A stretch of 20,453 nucleotides of DNA, taken from IMG/VR virus record IMGVR_UViG_3300026519_000460, positions 1-20,453 of that record. The stretch is one strand, 5' to 3'. This DNA is from a virus. Numbering within the stretch: the first letter of the stretch is position 1; every line of letters begins with the position of its first letter. The notes under the pieces were generated by a model, which had not been told where the DNA came from, ran no database searches, and saw nothing but the letters and a program-made list of their open reading frames with translations. The translations under genes and the position numbers were made by a program. This document shows, piece after piece, positions 1 through 14,148 of this stretch.

Positions 1-270
1 ATCCATTACTTCGTTGACCGTGATCTGCACCGGATGGTCGGTCCGGACCGGGTTTCCAGATCCCTGAATGATGTCGAGAATTTCAATGGCGCGATCACCC
101 GGCATTGCAATGAATCCGCCCTGATTATGCGGGGGTTTGCAAAAGACTGGTTGGGCAAGAACCATTTTCACGAGAACAAGGAAATCACCGAGAAGTCCAT
201 TCGTGGGTTCGCAAGCCACACGGTCACGAAAATGCAGGCGGAGCTCGATGCAAGAAAGGGAACAGCGTGA
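1..270 (+). CDS. C-terminal fragment of unknown protein upstream of a QueC-like gene (5' end outside window)
   Basis: The frame is open from base 1 to the TGA at 268-270, giving about 89 residues. The first ATG (34) is internal rather than an obvious start, because the frame is already open before it and no ribosome-binding site precedes it. The fragment is mostly hydrophilic and helical-looking, ends in ELDARKGTA, and has no catalytic motif, signal peptide or membrane segment. I do not recognise the family. Its stop overlaps the GTG start of the QueC-like gene (GTGA at 267-270), so the two are translationally coupled and probably work together. In Qat anti-phage operons a protein of unknown fold (QatB) precedes the QueC-like QatC. 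This could be such a partner, but that rests on position only. Confidence 0.6.
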   Translation: MHYFVDRDLHRMVGPDRVSRSLNDVENFNGAITRHCNESALIMRGFAKDWLGKNHFHENKEITEKSIRGFASHTVTKMQAELDARKGTA

Positions 271-2129
271 GAAAATTCAAGATTGAATGCGGCGGTCAAA
301 CCACCGGCGACAAAGATGCCATTGTGCTGGATGTTCAGGGCGATGCCAGGAACGTCAATCTGCGCGTCGATTATATTACTCGCGGGATGCTCGGGAATGT
401 TCCAGATTTGCTTGCTGACCTGCTGGAAATATCCTCGTATGTTTTTTGCGCAGATCAACGCGCCTCGCGGGGATCAGAGAAGCTGACGAATTACGGTCGC
501 GATTGGCGCCGAGATATGCAATTCAGTATTCCCGTTCGTTGCCCCGATGTCTGGTCAGATGCGCAAGTTCAGAAAGAATTGTGCGACACCCTCGGGTTCC
601 TGTCCGACGATGCCTACACATTTGAATTCACGCTTTCGAAAAATCCGGTGGAAATCCAGGAGCAGTATTTTCCTAACCTGATCGATGCGGCACCAAGCGT
701 GGACGAGGTGGCGCTGTTCTCGGGCGGGATCGATTCCTTTGCAGGCGCAGCGAATGATATCGTGTGCAATAATAAATCCTTGCTGCTTGTCGGCCATTCC
801 GGAGCAACGAAAATTCGCAGTGTTCAGGATATTCTGATCAAGGAATTGAAAGAACGTGGCCATCAACGGCTGGTATCTTTTGTGCCCGTTTGCGTATCCA
901 ACATTGGCGCGCGAACCGTGGAGCACACGCAGCGCACCAGGTCATTCCTGTTCGCATGCCTTGGGCTGGTTATTGCCCAAATGGCGGGGAAAGACCGGTT
1001 CACCTTTTATGAAAATGGCGTCGTCAGCATGAACCCGCCAGTATCCGGTGACATTGTCGGTGGACGCGCAACCCGAACGACTCATCCCCGGGTTCTCCGT
1101 GGACTGGAACGCCTGTTTTCACTGATATTGGAACGGGAAATCTCGATCGATACGCCGCTGCAATGGATGACAAAGCCGGAAGTGGTTCAGTTGATCAAGG
1201 ACGCCGGGATGTCAGACTTACTGCCGATGACGTGCAGTTGCACCAGAACGCATTCGCGAACAAAGGCCCAGCCGCATTGTGGCGAATGCTCTCAGTGTAT
1301 TGACCGTCGATTTGCCGTGCTTGCCGCGGGTATGGAGAAATATGAACCCGCATCAACGTACCGCCTCGATCTGATGACCGCTGACCGCACCGGCAATGAA
1401 AATCTGCGGATGGCGCTGAATTATGTCGCGTTTTTCAACAAGCTGAGGGGCGTTTCCCAAAACCGCTTTCTATTGGAGTATTCCGAGTTTGTTTCGGCCC
1501 TGGGCGAGTTTCCCGGCCTGACTGCGCAAGAGGCCGGAGCGCGGTTGTTTGATATGTTCCAGCGACAAGCGGCGTCGGTTGATTCCGTTATGGTGACGGC
1601 GCTCCGCGACAATGCCGAGGCATTGGTCAAAGGTGAAATTCTCCCTGGGTCACTGCTCGCCTTGTCGAGAAACGTTGAAAATGTCGCCGTTCAGCCGCCG
1701 TCGGACTATGATGCGCAGGCGAAAGAGTTCATTGACCGGCTTGGGGCGCCAATTCTTGAATTTGCTATAGATGATCAGAAGAAGCACGTCCTTTTTCGCA
1801 ACGGCCTGACGCTTGATGGAGTTGATTACAATATGGTTGAAAAGTTGTTGGCCGACTTCCGAGCAGTCAAGCGCGAAGCAGGGACGGCAGAGTGCATATC
1901 CGCGCCAGATTTGGCCAAGGTTCTGGGGAAGACCGAACAATCTATCCGCCAACAACGAAGCCGCATAGGCAAGAAGCTTGCTTCCCTGGCTGCGGACCTC
2001 GGCATTCCTCTGAATGAGGACAGCTTCATCGAAAACCTTCATAGCGAGGGTTACCGGCTCAACCCGAATCTGCGCGAAGTTGCCCTTGCGGATATCAAGA
2101 AAAAGGGGCCGCCACCCACTGAGCCTTGA
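267..2129 (+). CDS. QueC-like PP-loop protein (7-cyano-7-deazaguanine synthase family, Qat/CBASS-type) with C-terminal winged-helix-like domain
   Basis: The start is GTG at 267, overlapping the upstream stop, with a purine-rich AAAGGGA before it. Residues 152-157 read SGGIDS, the PP-loop ATP-pyrophosphatase signature. Residues C323, C325, C338, C341 and C344 form the QueC-type zinc site (CGECSQC ending it). QueC normally turns carboxy-deazaguanine into preQ0 and is about 220-240 residues; this protein has 620. It has about 140 extra N-terminal residues and a long C-terminal part. Residues roughly 505-602 resemble an OmpR-type winged helix, including a terminal GYRLNP hairpin. Long QueC paralogues in defence operons (QatC, Cap9 of type IV CBASS) are known to act outside tRNA modification. 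No other queuosine gene is nearby, so a defence role is more likely than biosynthesis. Family call is firm; system assignment is inference. Confidence 0.85.
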   Translation: MRKFKIECGGQTTGDKDAIVLDVQGDARNVNLRVDYITRGMLGNVPDLLADLLEISSYVFCADQRASRGSEKLTNYGRDWRRDMQFSIPVRCPDVWSDAQVQKELCDTLGFLSDDAYTFEFTLSKNPVEIQEQYFPNLIDAAPSVDEVALFSGGIDSFAGAANDIVCNNKSLLLVGHSGATKIRSVQDILIKELKERGHQRLVSFVPVCVSNIGARTVEHTQRTRSFLFACLGLVIAQMAGKDRFTFYENGVVSMNPPVSGDIVGGRATRTTHPRVLRGLERLFSLILEREISIDTPLQWMTKPEVVQLIKDAGMSDLLPMTCSCTRTHSRTKAQPHCGECSQCIDRRFAVLAAGMEKYEPASTYRLDLMTADRTGNENLRMALNYVAFFNKLRGVSQNRFLLEYSEFVSALGEFPGLTAQEAGARLFDMFQRQAASVDSVMVTALRDNAEALVKGEILPGSLLALSRNVENVAVQPPSDYDAQAKEFIDRLGAPILEFAIDDQKKHVLFRNGLTLDGVDYNMVEKLLADFRAVKREAGTAECISAPDLAKVLGKTEQSIRQQRSRIGKKLASLAADLGIPLNEDSFIENLHSEGYRLNPNLREVALADIKKKGPPPTEP

Positions 2130-11517: not shown

Positions 11518-11603
11518 GGAAGCCACCCGGAGTCCAGTTGCGCGATCCCCCACGTTAATGACCAATAAAACAAAGCGTTAGCCGCCCATTAGAGGTGGCT
11601 TCC
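11518..11603. repeat. 10-bp inverted repeat enclosing 66 bp
   Basis: GGAAGCCACC (11518-11527) and GGTGGCTTCC (11594-11603) are exact complements. RNA from this region could form a large stem-loop, or the arms may be protein sites. Confidence 0.6.
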
Positions 11604-11671
11604 ATGTGGACCCCTCGGGGTCCAGAAAATCCAGTTGGAATCCGGTAGCGGAGTCCACCCGCCGGAATCCA
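11529..11671. promoter_or_regulatory. Cluster of six TGGANNCC motifs, candidate operator array
   Basis: Motifs in either orientation lie at 11529-11536, 11607-11614, 11617-11624, 11636-11643, 11650-11657 and 11664-11671. Copies two and three form the palindrome TGGACCCC-TC-GGGGTCCA; copies four and five form a second inverted pair spaced by 6 bp. The cluster ends 33 bp before the methyltransferase start. Confidence 0.45.
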
Positions 11672-11704
11672 CCGGCACCGATCAGAGATCACAGAAAACC
11701 GAAT

Positions 11705-12952
11705 ATGACCCTCAGCTTCGCCCCTGACGCGATCGAGCAATGGCCGCTCGACCGCCTGAAATCTTACGCCCGCAACGCTAAAATGCACGGCGCGGACCAG
11801 GTTGCCAAGATCGCCGCCAGCATGGCCGAGTTCGGCTGGACCGTGCCCTGCCTTGTCGCCGATGATGGCGAGCTGATCGCGGGCCATGGCCGGGTGCTGG
11901 CCGCCGAGCGGCTGGGGCTGAAGGAAGCGCCAGTGATCGTGCTCGGGCATCTGTCGGATGAACAACGCCGTGCCTACCGGATCGCGGACAACAAGCTGAC
12001 CGAATTGGGCGAGTGGGATGAAATCGTCCTGTCCGAGGAACTGCAATTGCTGGCGTCGGAGGATTTCGACCTGTCGCTGATCGGGTTTGATGACGGCGAA
12101 TTGGATGCGTTGCTGTCCGGCCTCGATGGTGAAATCGACACGGACGGCGAGGATGATATTCCCGAGCCACCAGAAGAGCCGGTCAGCCGACCGGGCGACC
12201 TTTGGCTGCTTGGCAACCACCGCCTGCTTTGCGGGGATGCGACAATCGCCACCGATGTCGAGCGGGTGTTGGGCAATGTGAGACCGCTGTTGATGGTCAC
12301 CGATCCGCCTTACGGGGTGGAATACGATCCGGGCTGGCGCAACAAATCCGGAGCCTCGGCTACCAAACGCACCGGCAAGGTGCTGAATGATGACCGTGCC
12401 GACTGGCGGGAGGCTTGGGCGTTGTTTCCGGGTGATGTTGCCTATGTCTGGCATGGGGCGCTGCATGCGGGAGAGGTGGCTGAAAGCCTTGAGGTTTCGG
12501 GGTTCAAGATCCGTTCGCAAATCATCTGGGCCAAGGACCGCTTGGTGCTGAGCCGTGGCGATTATCATTGGCAACATGAACCGTGTCTCTACGCTGTCAA
12601 AAAGACCGGCAAGGGCCATTGGGCCGGGGATCGCAAGCAAACCACGCTGTGGCAGATCGCCAACAAGGATCAGGACGCGGACACGGTGCACGGCACGCAA
12701 AAGCCTGTCGAATGCATGCGCCGCCCGATCCTGAACAATTCCAGCCCCGGTCAGGCAATTTATGAACCGTTCATGGGGTCCGGCACCACGCTGATTGCGG
12801 CCGAGACCACGGGCCGCGTTTGCCACGGGATCGAGTTGAACCCCGCCTATGTCGATGTGGCAGTGGAACGCTGGCAGCAATTCACCGGCCAAGCCGCAAC
12901 GCTGGACGGCACAGATCAGACGTTCGCCGAGCTGGCGGAAACCCCGCGCTGA
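11705..12952 (+). CDS. ParB-like nuclease domain / beta-class DNA methyltransferase fusion
   Basis: A 415-residue protein. Residues about 10-105 are a ParB/Srx-like domain with the IAGHGR motif (58-63) and the RIADNKLTE helix. Residues about 160-395 are an N6-adenine or N4-cytosine methyltransferase: motif IV DPPYGVEY (200-207) comes before motif I EPFMGSGT (354-361), the beta-class order shared with CcrM. HGTQKPVE (329-336) is the conserved segment before motif I. It transfers methyl groups from S-adenosylmethionine to DNA bases. No restriction enzyme is adjacent, so it probably masks phage DNA from host restriction or affects regulation. The ParB part may help DNA binding. The start is ATG 11705, where family similarity begins; the site before it is weak. 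Confidence 0.88.
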   Translation: MTLSFAPDAIEQWPLDRLKSYARNAKMHGADQVAKIAASMAEFGWTVPCLVADDGELIAGHGRVLAAERLGLKEAPVIVLGHLSDEQRRAYRIADNKLTELGEWDEIVLSEELQLLASEDFDLSLIGFDDGELDALLSGLDGEIDTDGEDDIPEPPEEPVSRPGDLWLLGNHRLLCGDATIATDVERVLGNVRPLLMVTDPPYGVEYDPGWRNKSGASATKRTGKVLNDDRADWREAWALFPGDVAYVWHGALHAGEVAESLEVSGFKIRSQIIWAKDRLVLSRGDYHWQHEPCLYAVKKTGKGHWAGDRKQTTLWQIANKDQDADTVHGTQKPVECMRRPILNNSSPGQAIYEPFMGSGTTLIAAETTGRVCHGIELNPAYVDVAVERWQQFTGQAATLDGTDQTFAELAETPR

Positions 12953-12969
12953 GTTCAGCAAATGGGTAG

Positions 12970-12998
12970 TTGCTCGTGAAAAATAGATTGCATAAAAT
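12970..12998 (+). promoter_or_regulatory. Sigma-70-like promoter of the exported ClpP-fold gene
   Basis: TTGCTC (12970-12975) and TAAAAT (12993-12998) are separated by 17 bp. It lies 44 bp before the ATG at 13042, with GGGGG about 10 nt before the start. An own promoter fits a moron transcribed from the prophage state. Confidence 0.5.
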
Positions 12999-13041
12999 CC
13001 CATCGCCGAATACACTTTCATCCTAAATTGGGGGTATAAGA

Positions 13042-14148
13042 ATGATTAGAAGTTTGATTCTATTTCCGATTTTCATTTTTGCCATTGCCTTTGCCTTTGC
13101 CAGCCAAATATCGGCGAAAGACATGACATTCGATATTATTTACGCTAACCACAGCAACTTTGTTGTAGCAGATGGCGAAATTACCGCAGACACTCCCAGT
13201 GTGTTTCAGGATTTTCTTGATACCAAACCGTTTGACGGTTTCACATACTATATTGATTTAAACTCGCCCGGCGGCAACCTCTTGGGTGGCATGGAGCTTG
13301 GCAAGATGATTCGAGCGCAGGGGTTGATTGCGCGAGTAATGTCTTATGCGCCACGCGCACTAGGAGAGGATTACTGGTATCCACGAGAAGAGCCCGGCAT
13401 CTGCATGTCGGCCTGTGCGTTGGCATTCCTCGGAGGCGATGACCGAGAGCTGGATAGTCGATCCATTCTTGGGTTTCATCAGTTCAGCAGTGTGGGCAGT
13501 GCATCTGGAAAGGTTGAAAGCGTACAAATGACCGAGGCCTCTACGCAGGTCATATCGGGCCTCGTCCACGAATACATCGTGACCATGGGAGCTTCACCGA
13601 CACTGTTTTCTAGAATGAGTATGACGCTTCCCGACGAAATTTTTATTCCTTCGACAAAAGAACTTCAGGACTTCAATATCATCCCGCCCGAAGCATTCAG
13701 TAATTTTACGCTTGAGCCCTATGGAAGTGGAATCATTGCATATTCAATTCTGCCAGAGAATGTTCAAGGCAGGAATATCGTGAGTCAGATCACAGCCTAC
13801 TGTCGTAACGGTATACCTTACCTCCTACTATCAAAGCCCGAGACCATGAGGCCCCTGACTGAAGGGTGGCTGAATTCAGCAAACGAAATGCTCGATGGTT
13901 TCTCTCTCTGGCGTCCACCTGGAACGGTGAGAGTAGACTACCCAGCATCGAATGTGGACTTGCGAATCGGCGGCCAAACCCTCGCTGAAATTAGAATTGA
14001 CGCACGTGGTATAGAAATTCTAATGGGTGAAGTAAAAGGTAACGTCCAGCTACCGGGCGTTCTTGGAACCAGTATGTATTTTCTGATACAACCGACTGAT
14101 CCCGATAAAAATATCCTACGCAGTGCTTTTCAGCTATGTATCGACTAA
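13042..14148 (+). CDS. Exported ClpP/crotonase-fold serine protease-like protein (COG3904-like), moron
   Basis: A 368-residue protein with a signal peptide: MIRS, a hydrophobic stretch to about residue 20, and a likely cut after ISA (about residue 25). The mature part has a ClpP-like fold: YIDLNSPGG (70-78), then GICMSACALAFLGG with S123 where the nucleophile is expected, and GFHQF with H146 as the general base. Cysteines C121 and C125 flank the serine. Residues after about 230 show no motif. This matches the periplasmic ClpP-like family often called COG3904. The gene is clearly more AT-rich than both neighbours and has its own promoter, as expected for a cargo gene that alters the lysogen. 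The substrate is unknown. It is distinct from the head protease at the window end. Confidence 0.8.
   Translation: MIRSLILFPIFIFAIAFAFASQISAKDMTFDIIYANHSNFVVADGEITADTPSVFQDFLDTKPFDGFTYYIDLNSPGGNLLGGMELGKMIRAQGLIARVMSYAPRALGEDYWYPREEPGICMSACALAFLGGDDRELDSRSILGFHQFSSVGSASGKVESVQMTEASTQVISGLVHEYIVTMGASPTLFSRMSMTLPDEIFIPSTKELQDFNIIPPEAFSNFTLEPYGSGIIAYSILPENVQGRNIVSQITAYCRNGIPYLLLSKPETMRPLTEGWLNSANEMLDGFSLWRPPGTVRVDYPASNVDLRIGGQTLAEIRIDARGIEILMGEVKGNVQLPGVLGTSMYFLIQPTDPDKNILRSAFQLCID

Follow-up and report, generated by a model that had tools for sequence, protein, structure and literature searches.

The virus record analysed here, IMG/VR IMGVR_UViG_3300026519_000460 (20,453 bp, hereafter the window), opens with two overlapping genes, followed on the same strand by short direct repeats and an excisionase-like (xis-like) gene, and our subject is the enzyme encoded by the second of these genes and the promoter it may control. 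The first gene, at 1 to 270 (+), is cut by the contig end, leaving the last 89 codons of a partner in the position of QatB, and it overlaps by 4 bp an intact open reading frame (ORF) at 267 to 2129 (+) that starts with GTG and encodes a QatC-like protein of 620 amino acids. Beyond its stop codon lie, all on the plus strand, candidate operator repeat 1 (2136 to 2144) and repeat 2 (2158 to 2166, 22 bp past the first), both ATGTCACAA, and repeat 3 (2212 to 2220, 54 bp past the second), which reads ATGCCACAA with one mismatch. Between repeats 2 and 3 is a strong predicted intrinsic terminator of the partner/QatC unit, a hairpin with a T-run (2178 to 2199, z -4.7), conserved in loci L002, L003, and L006. 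A TATAAT at 2240 to 2245 is a candidate -10 of the xis-like operon by consensus match only, and the first gene of that early operon, at 2270 to 2569 with an alternative ATG at 2336, belongs to the HTH_17 family of excisionases and transcriptional regulators (Pfam HTH_17 4e-9; phrog_66 1.4e-9). Library scans of the window ORFs also found terminase, portal, and ClpP-like genes.

A QatC-type enzyme with a winged helix

A first-pass annotation, made from the sequence alone, had described the ORF at 267 to 2129 as a QueC-like enzyme with an SGGIDS loop, a five-Cys zinc site, and an OmpR-like winged helix. From its sequence, the core of this protein is QatC-like rather than QueC-like. The profile search proposed at that time matches residues 49 to 375 to QatC models (NCBIfam E 8e-59, PADLOC E 5e-50), and a PDB sequence search also gives QatC, although the NCBIfam NF041925 score of 199.5 bits is under the 280-bit equivalog cut-off and to that extent speaks against membership of the QatC family. 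The AlphaFold2 model of the full protein, with a mean predicted local distance difference test score (pLDDT) of 87, was matched by Foldseek to the QatC crystal 9y01_B over 465 columns (template modelling [TM] score 0.76 by target length, E 3.4e-20), and a match of this span makes residues 1 to 470 (267 to 1676) the equivalent of a complete QatC, in which the PP-loop/QueC fold is flanked by an N-terminal extension and by C-terminal helices that both go beyond QueC.

The active-site columns of 80 family members, compared with those of 9 canonical QatC whose plasmid qat operons are annotated or recognisable, point the same way. The SGGIDS ATP pyrophosphate loop is indeed present (residues 152 to 157, nucleotides 720 to 737), with residues 152, 153, 154, 156, and 157 invariant in all 80 relatives, and the SGGxDS, RxRSF (R223/R225), ExG, TRTTHP, and TK motifs are kept as in canonical QatC. 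The five-Cys zinc site needs correction. C325, C338, C341, and C344 (1239 to 1298) are conserved in 80/80 relatives and 9/9 canonical QatC, but C323 is not, and the site is therefore a four-Cys one, as in the QatC crystal (PMC13279940). The Tyr/Asp pair with which QueC recognises its base is replaced by Thr (T269/T271), as in QatC, and the interface loop N256-H273 is conserved and of equal length; the published QatC counterparts of these conserved residues are S156/D160/S161, T278/T280, and the loop N265-H282 (PMC13279940).

The same residues bear on the suggestion that the enzyme might modify bases or nucleic acid. A diverged QueC-like enzyme supplying 7-deazaguanine for the protection of phage DNA would fit the QueC family fold, the QueC genes of other phages (matches in BFVD, which gave no QatC-like folds beyond QueC), and the occurrence of deazaguanines in phage DNA (PMC13329287). 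But with Tyr/Asp replaced by Thr, no other deazaguanine-pathway gene recognised among the window ORFs searched, strict pairing with a partner gene of the type described below, and an E. coli QatC that does not complement queC (PMC13329287), we consider this highly improbable, and the suggestion of base modification is not supported.

The length of the protein had been remarked on as more than twice that of QueC. At 620 residues this holds, but the yardstick was wrong, since canonical QatC is itself about 430 to 455 amino acids long and the surplus is about 150 residues. That surplus contains the winged helix, which had been placed at about residues 505 to 602 and which both AlphaFold2 and a profile of 48 relatives support at residues ~496 to 604 (1752 to 2078). 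The model has strands at 498-502 and 507-509, helices at 518-537, 546-553, and 557-578, and wing strands at 588-591 and 595-598, with block pLDDT of 75 to 92 across these elements; helix 557-578 (nucleotides 1935 to 2000) is the recognition helix. Searched against PDB sequences, the 48-relative profile has as its top matches the DNA-binding domains of TcpP (ToxR-type, E 7e-4) and ArlR (E 0.012). Individual members match HTH_11 and Trans_reg_C, the latter weakly and in 12/48. The wing residues G595-Y596-R597 are invariant (48/48), and positions R561 and R566 are basic in 94-96%. In the model, then, the C-terminal domain is a real winged helix of OmpR-type topology, with both the fold and the conserved DNA-contact residues of such domains. 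The likeness to OmpR/PhoB/ToxR regulators (PF00486) takes in topology, recognition-helix Arg, GYR wing, and candidate direct-repeat sites phased near multiples of a DNA turn, but here there is no receiver or membrane domain and the module is fused to an enzyme. Both domains are under purifying selection, with a ratio of nonsynonymous to synonymous substitution rates (dN/dS) of 0.08 to 0.13 for the core and 0.14 to 0.31 for the winged helix. Over the C-terminal 110 codons, the winged-helix dS between L003 and L006 is 0.25, under half of the core dS of 0.59, which suggests recombination of the DNA-binding module between relatives.

The partner gene and a sister clade of QatC

The gene directly upstream of the QatC-like gene, usually overlapping it and in the window clade by 4 bp, is complete in L003:165-950 and L006:7216-8001, where it encodes 262 amino acids starting MGHQRLGKLPAH. 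Partners of this type are about 260 residues long, helical, and begin MGHxRLGxLPxxRKW. The MGH is found in 120/125 identified partners, and His3, Leu6, Gly7, Leu9, and Pro10 are near-invariant despite 20-30% identity between the most distant proteins; the starts were picked for a Gly after the Met, so that Met1-Gly2 is a product of selection and the rest of the motif is not. N-terminal glycine motifs are essential in QatB (MGTS) and in CdnD (MGGS) of the cyclic oligonucleotide-based antiphage signalling system (CBASS) (PMC13279940). The partner does not match QatB models, nor any family, and no cGAS/DncV-like nucleotidyltransferase (CD-NTase) is recognisable in it; its identification as a plain QatB was set aside as not confident, the support from sequence (hhalign) and from fold (Foldseek) being weak. 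In ~10 loci of the clade to which the window belongs (the window clade), a divergent Fic/DOC protein is encoded just 5' of the partner gene, as at L006:5899-7068 (-).

Searches of genomes and viral contigs recovered about 150 loci of such proteins in about 10 phyla, mostly in phages or integrative elements; hosts include Pseudomonadota, Acidobacteriota, Planctomycetota, Verrucomicrobiota, Myxococcota, Chloroflexota, and Bacteroidota, as well as Leptospira (on a plasmid). Close known phage relatives came down to a 27% match in two Listeria phage records that lack annotation. The tree splits the clade from canonical QatC (support 100/99), and QatA (KAP NTPase) and QatD (TatD nuclease) are found at 0/155 clade loci by models that detect both beside canonical QatC. 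An independent search seeded with canonical QatC returned 11 clear canonical viral loci and ~55 loci of the sister clade. The former have a QatC of ~407-487 amino acids, so the C-terminal extension is not standard in QatC, together with an MGTS partner in 10, both QatA and QatD in 9/11, and one of the two in 2/11; the latter have the MGH-type partner wherever one was identified, with one MGQ exception, and none has QatA/D. In short, the fusion recurs, always accompanied by a partner gene of its own and at no locus by QatA/QatD. Against this record, an ordinary qatABCD QatC lengthened by chance C-terminal read-through, for which the QatC HMM matches might be cited, is scarcely credible and indeed already contradicted by the missing QatA/QatD (0/155), the separate clade (100/99), and an extension that is conserved, folded, and under purifying selection.

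The winged helix is only one of several C-terminal modules swapped on the tree, which also include a Trans_reg_C-type winged helix (Pfam E 2e-4), a coiled-coil, a DpnII/MboI-type nuclease (Pfam E 5e-8) with PD..ExK intact in 5/5, and others; the C-termini of cluster 1 gave no Pfam or PDB identity. The first-pass annotation had thought a DNA-binding module on the same chain an unusual build. The fusion is real, but it is no one-off, being one branch of a large clade. The nuclease fusions (L067, L063, L064, L069, and L005, with ~145 C-terminal amino acids) are candidate effector-bearing QatBC systems in their own right. QatC has been described with C-terminal helices only, and only about one third of the genes in its cluster are reported to be neighbours of qatA/qatD (PMC13329287). 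The sister clade is apparently previously undescribed. In the literature found, with preprints and subscription papers outside its scope, there is no description of a winged helix on QatC, of this clade, or of a natural QatBC without QatA/D.

Two known systems are the natural points of comparison. With QatC/QatB of qatABCD (NF041925; PDB 9y01, 9y02, 9zee, 9vlk), the pair shares the whole-length QatC fold, the SGGxDS loop, the Thr pair, the N256-H273 loop length, the four-Cys zinc site, and a small helical upstream partner with N-terminal Met-Gly; it differs in its separate clade, the lack of QatA/QatD, an MGHxRLGxLP rather than MGTS partner, the extra C-terminal module, its frequency in prophages, and the candidate operator array at the xis promoter. 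With Cap9 of type IV CBASS it has in common a QueC-family enzyme and a protein N-terminal glycine as substrate, here only proposed; Cap9 itself is ~185 amino acids long, still has the Tyr/Asp pair for nucleobase recognition, and takes a CD-NTase as the protein to be modified (PMC13329287, PMC13279940); here none of these features is seen. The pair is a QatBC-type variant whose function is possibly categorically new.

The repeat array at the xis-like promoter

Copies of YGTCACA stand at about +8, +30, and +84 after the QatC stop codon in the window clade, spaced ~22 and ~54 bp apart, and at least two of them are found in 56/60 window-clade loci; the third, mismatched in the window, is ATGTCACAA in L002, L003, and L006. 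Shuffled sequence yields 1 triple per 0.8 Mb, as against ~75 in the 1.27 Mb searched. Exact triples occur at 72/90 loci whose winged helix has Arg561, none of them GTCAG, and the array is found at 0/51 clade loci with other C-terminal types. All but one of the exact triples (74/75) lie <600 bp upstream of an xis-like gene that shares their strand; in most cases a -10-like sequence follows 21-25 bp past the third repeat. In Roseobacter-type elements the array is ~2 kb from QatC, on the opposite strand (QatC being convergent) and upstream of xis, and in L020 and L349 it likewise precedes the xis-like gene away from QatC; it is therefore not a mere mark of the QatC 3' end.

Does the array belong to the xis-like gene or to QatC? 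Excisionase-family HTH proteins bind direct repeats, and the placement in 74/75 cases would suit an operator of the xis-like protein itself, or of another regulator, with the winged helix binding elsewhere or serving as a protein-interaction domain. But among phages of the same backbone, defined by a shared AAA gene, the array is present in 9/9 loci with QatC and in 0/55 without it, many of the latter having xis-like genes, and it tracks both the winged-helix type and QatC residue 561. We regard this alternative as distinctly improbable. Scanning 2.9 million viral contigs with the motif only gave 26 stretches. In 22 of them QatC overlaps the stretch or lies within ~160 bp upstream; among the others, the QatC of L349 is at another place in the contig, L352 breaks off on the side that matters, and in L332, L350, and L357 the motif lies inside long open frames.

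Only six winged-helix members have a residue other than Arg at position 561 of the recognition helix. The repeats read GTCAG where this residue is Tyr (L119), His (L048), or Ala (L155/L157), and GTCAC copies are retained in L071, where it is Lys. Since L119 and L048/L155 sit in well-separated parts of the tree, residue and repeat must have changed jointly at least twice, independently. The obvious structural reading is that Arg561 would contact the G opposite the C of GTCAC, and the predicted recognition code is Arg561 with GTCAC and a non-basic residue with GTCAG. The first-pass annotation had suggested that the module might tie the enzyme to the sensing of DNA; a link to DNA is probable, but the evidence points to recognition of the element's own xis/early operator and not to a general sensing of foreign DNA.

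Prophage context and a possible control unit

In the window clade a large serine recombinase is usually encoded a few kb from the pair, which itself directly precedes an xis-like HTH_17 gene, a Gam-like gene, and an AAA gene. In Roseobacter-type loci the pair adjoins the 3' end of a tRNA (Lys, Arg, or Thr), and after it come a tyrosine recombinase in convergent orientation and two HTH_17 genes. In one of these loci, L052, a 56-bp tRNA repeat is found at a distance of 13.9 kb, with restriction-modification genes inside; L052 is the only locus with tRNA-derived direct repeats bounding a minimal element, none being found in nine other loci within the stretches searched. Loci of this kind probably form a tRNA-targeting element family that carries QatBC and, in some cases, restriction-modification genes. 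Tandem GGTAAGC-N4-GGTAAGC repeats lie beside the tRNA in L052 (6976-7110), L024, L034, L037, L039, L045, L047, L054, and L055, and in L052 the pair recurs ~13.8 kb downstream, beside the far att repeat. Near the partner gene they had been considered as a PhoB-type box, which was rejected given the same pair at the other end of the L052 element; they are probably integrase arm sites.

In same-phage relatives without QatBC, the slot 5' of xis holds a CI-like S24 repressor in 8/45 loci with enough flank, and in others it holds different units of one or two genes; two proteins from these units end in sequence that looks winged-helix-like by eye. CI-like repressors thus share with the pair the slot upstream of the xis-like/early operon, whereas the pair is an unrelated two-gene enzyme module, in the window clade on the same strand as that operon. 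Such occupants fit a slot for exchangeable immunity or regulation. Units in the slot at L253:2480-3418, L308:2698-4804, and L330:2586-4818 encode proteins of 316, 395, and 315 amino acids with no Pfam match, and these may be further unusual immunity modules.

From these data we think it rather probable, for the statement as a whole, that the QatB/QatC-like pair is an exchangeable immunity or excision control unit of the prophage, acting through its own early operator. The module would consist of the ~260-residue helical partner with its MGHxRLGxLP tail and a QatC-type ATP-dependent enzyme which, by analogy with QatBC and Cap9/CdnD, would bind the partner and conjugate a small group to its N-terminal glycine, a modification that is chemically unproven even for QatC (PMC13279940). 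Judging by co-occurrence and the co-variation of residue 561, the winged helix would bind the three YGTCACA direct repeats at the xis-like/early promoter of its own element. A QatC/partner complex on this operator might then set, through its enzymatic state, the expression of xis and the replication genes, and the outcome would be control of lysogeny and possibly homoimmunity to related phages. The pattern points to the recruitment of a protein-modifying immune enzyme for prophage control. A more specific proposal, to which we give somewhat less than even credence, is a lysogeny/immunity switch of a new class, whose QueC-family enzyme modifies the N-terminus of its partner and so controls its own sequence-specific binding to the early operator.

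Several observations weigh against the control-unit reading. The likeness of the partner to QatB is weak (hhalign 46%; Foldseek probability 0.75, E 0.18, TM 0.33-0.39), even though QatB ranks first by Foldseek probability among the PDB matches listed, and the tail predicted to be disordered is shorter in the partner (~14 residues) than in QatB (30-90). No exact triple is found at 18/90 Arg561 loci, the window among them, although several have partial arrays. The co-variation amounts to two independent events only, and another protein travelling with QatBC could bind the array. Members with other C-termini, nuclease and others, have no array, and the common function of the clade may thus be defence.

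This last point leads to the view that the pair is prophage-borne anti-phage cargo like QatBC, its partner being modified on infection and the incoming phage restricted, with the winged helix recruiting the complex to DNA in place of the DNA-binding QatA and the array being only autoregulatory or incidental. QatBC alone suffices for defence against lambda, and QatA is a DNA-binding protein (PMC13279940); the nuclease-bearing sister members, the restriction-modification genes beside the pair in Roseobacter-type elements, and the separate transcription unit with its predicted terminator all favour such a role. But the array is at the xis promoter and not at that of qatBC, even where QatC is ~2 kb off and convergent, and a CI-like repressor takes the same slot in relatives; we hold defence cargo to be unlikely, if by no means negligible. 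Defence by the same complex could also coexist with control of the early operator, as superinfection immunity, and the alternatives are not all mutually exclusive.

Both the QatC reaction and the effect of its modification are open questions (PMC13279940). A clade without QatA/QatD, with its own invariant, proposed substrate tail and exchangeable outputs, offers simpler systems for direct readout: operator binding and xis transcription in the winged-helix branch, DNA cleavage in the nuclease branch. If the proposed switch is real, it would give phages a regulator that runs on protein conjugation chemistry and derives from a bacterial immune enzyme and, to our knowledge, would for the first time connect deazaguanine-type protein modification enzymes with the control of prophage excision.

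Elsewhere in the window, the gene at 11606-12952 (+) encodes a DNA N6/N4 methylase that also matches ParB-N weakly, and a 488-residue ORF antisense to it (11555-13021) is probably spurious. Between the methylase and terminase genes, a low-GC (0.48) gene at 13042-14148 encodes 368 amino acids with no Pfam match and weak matches to PHROG proteases.
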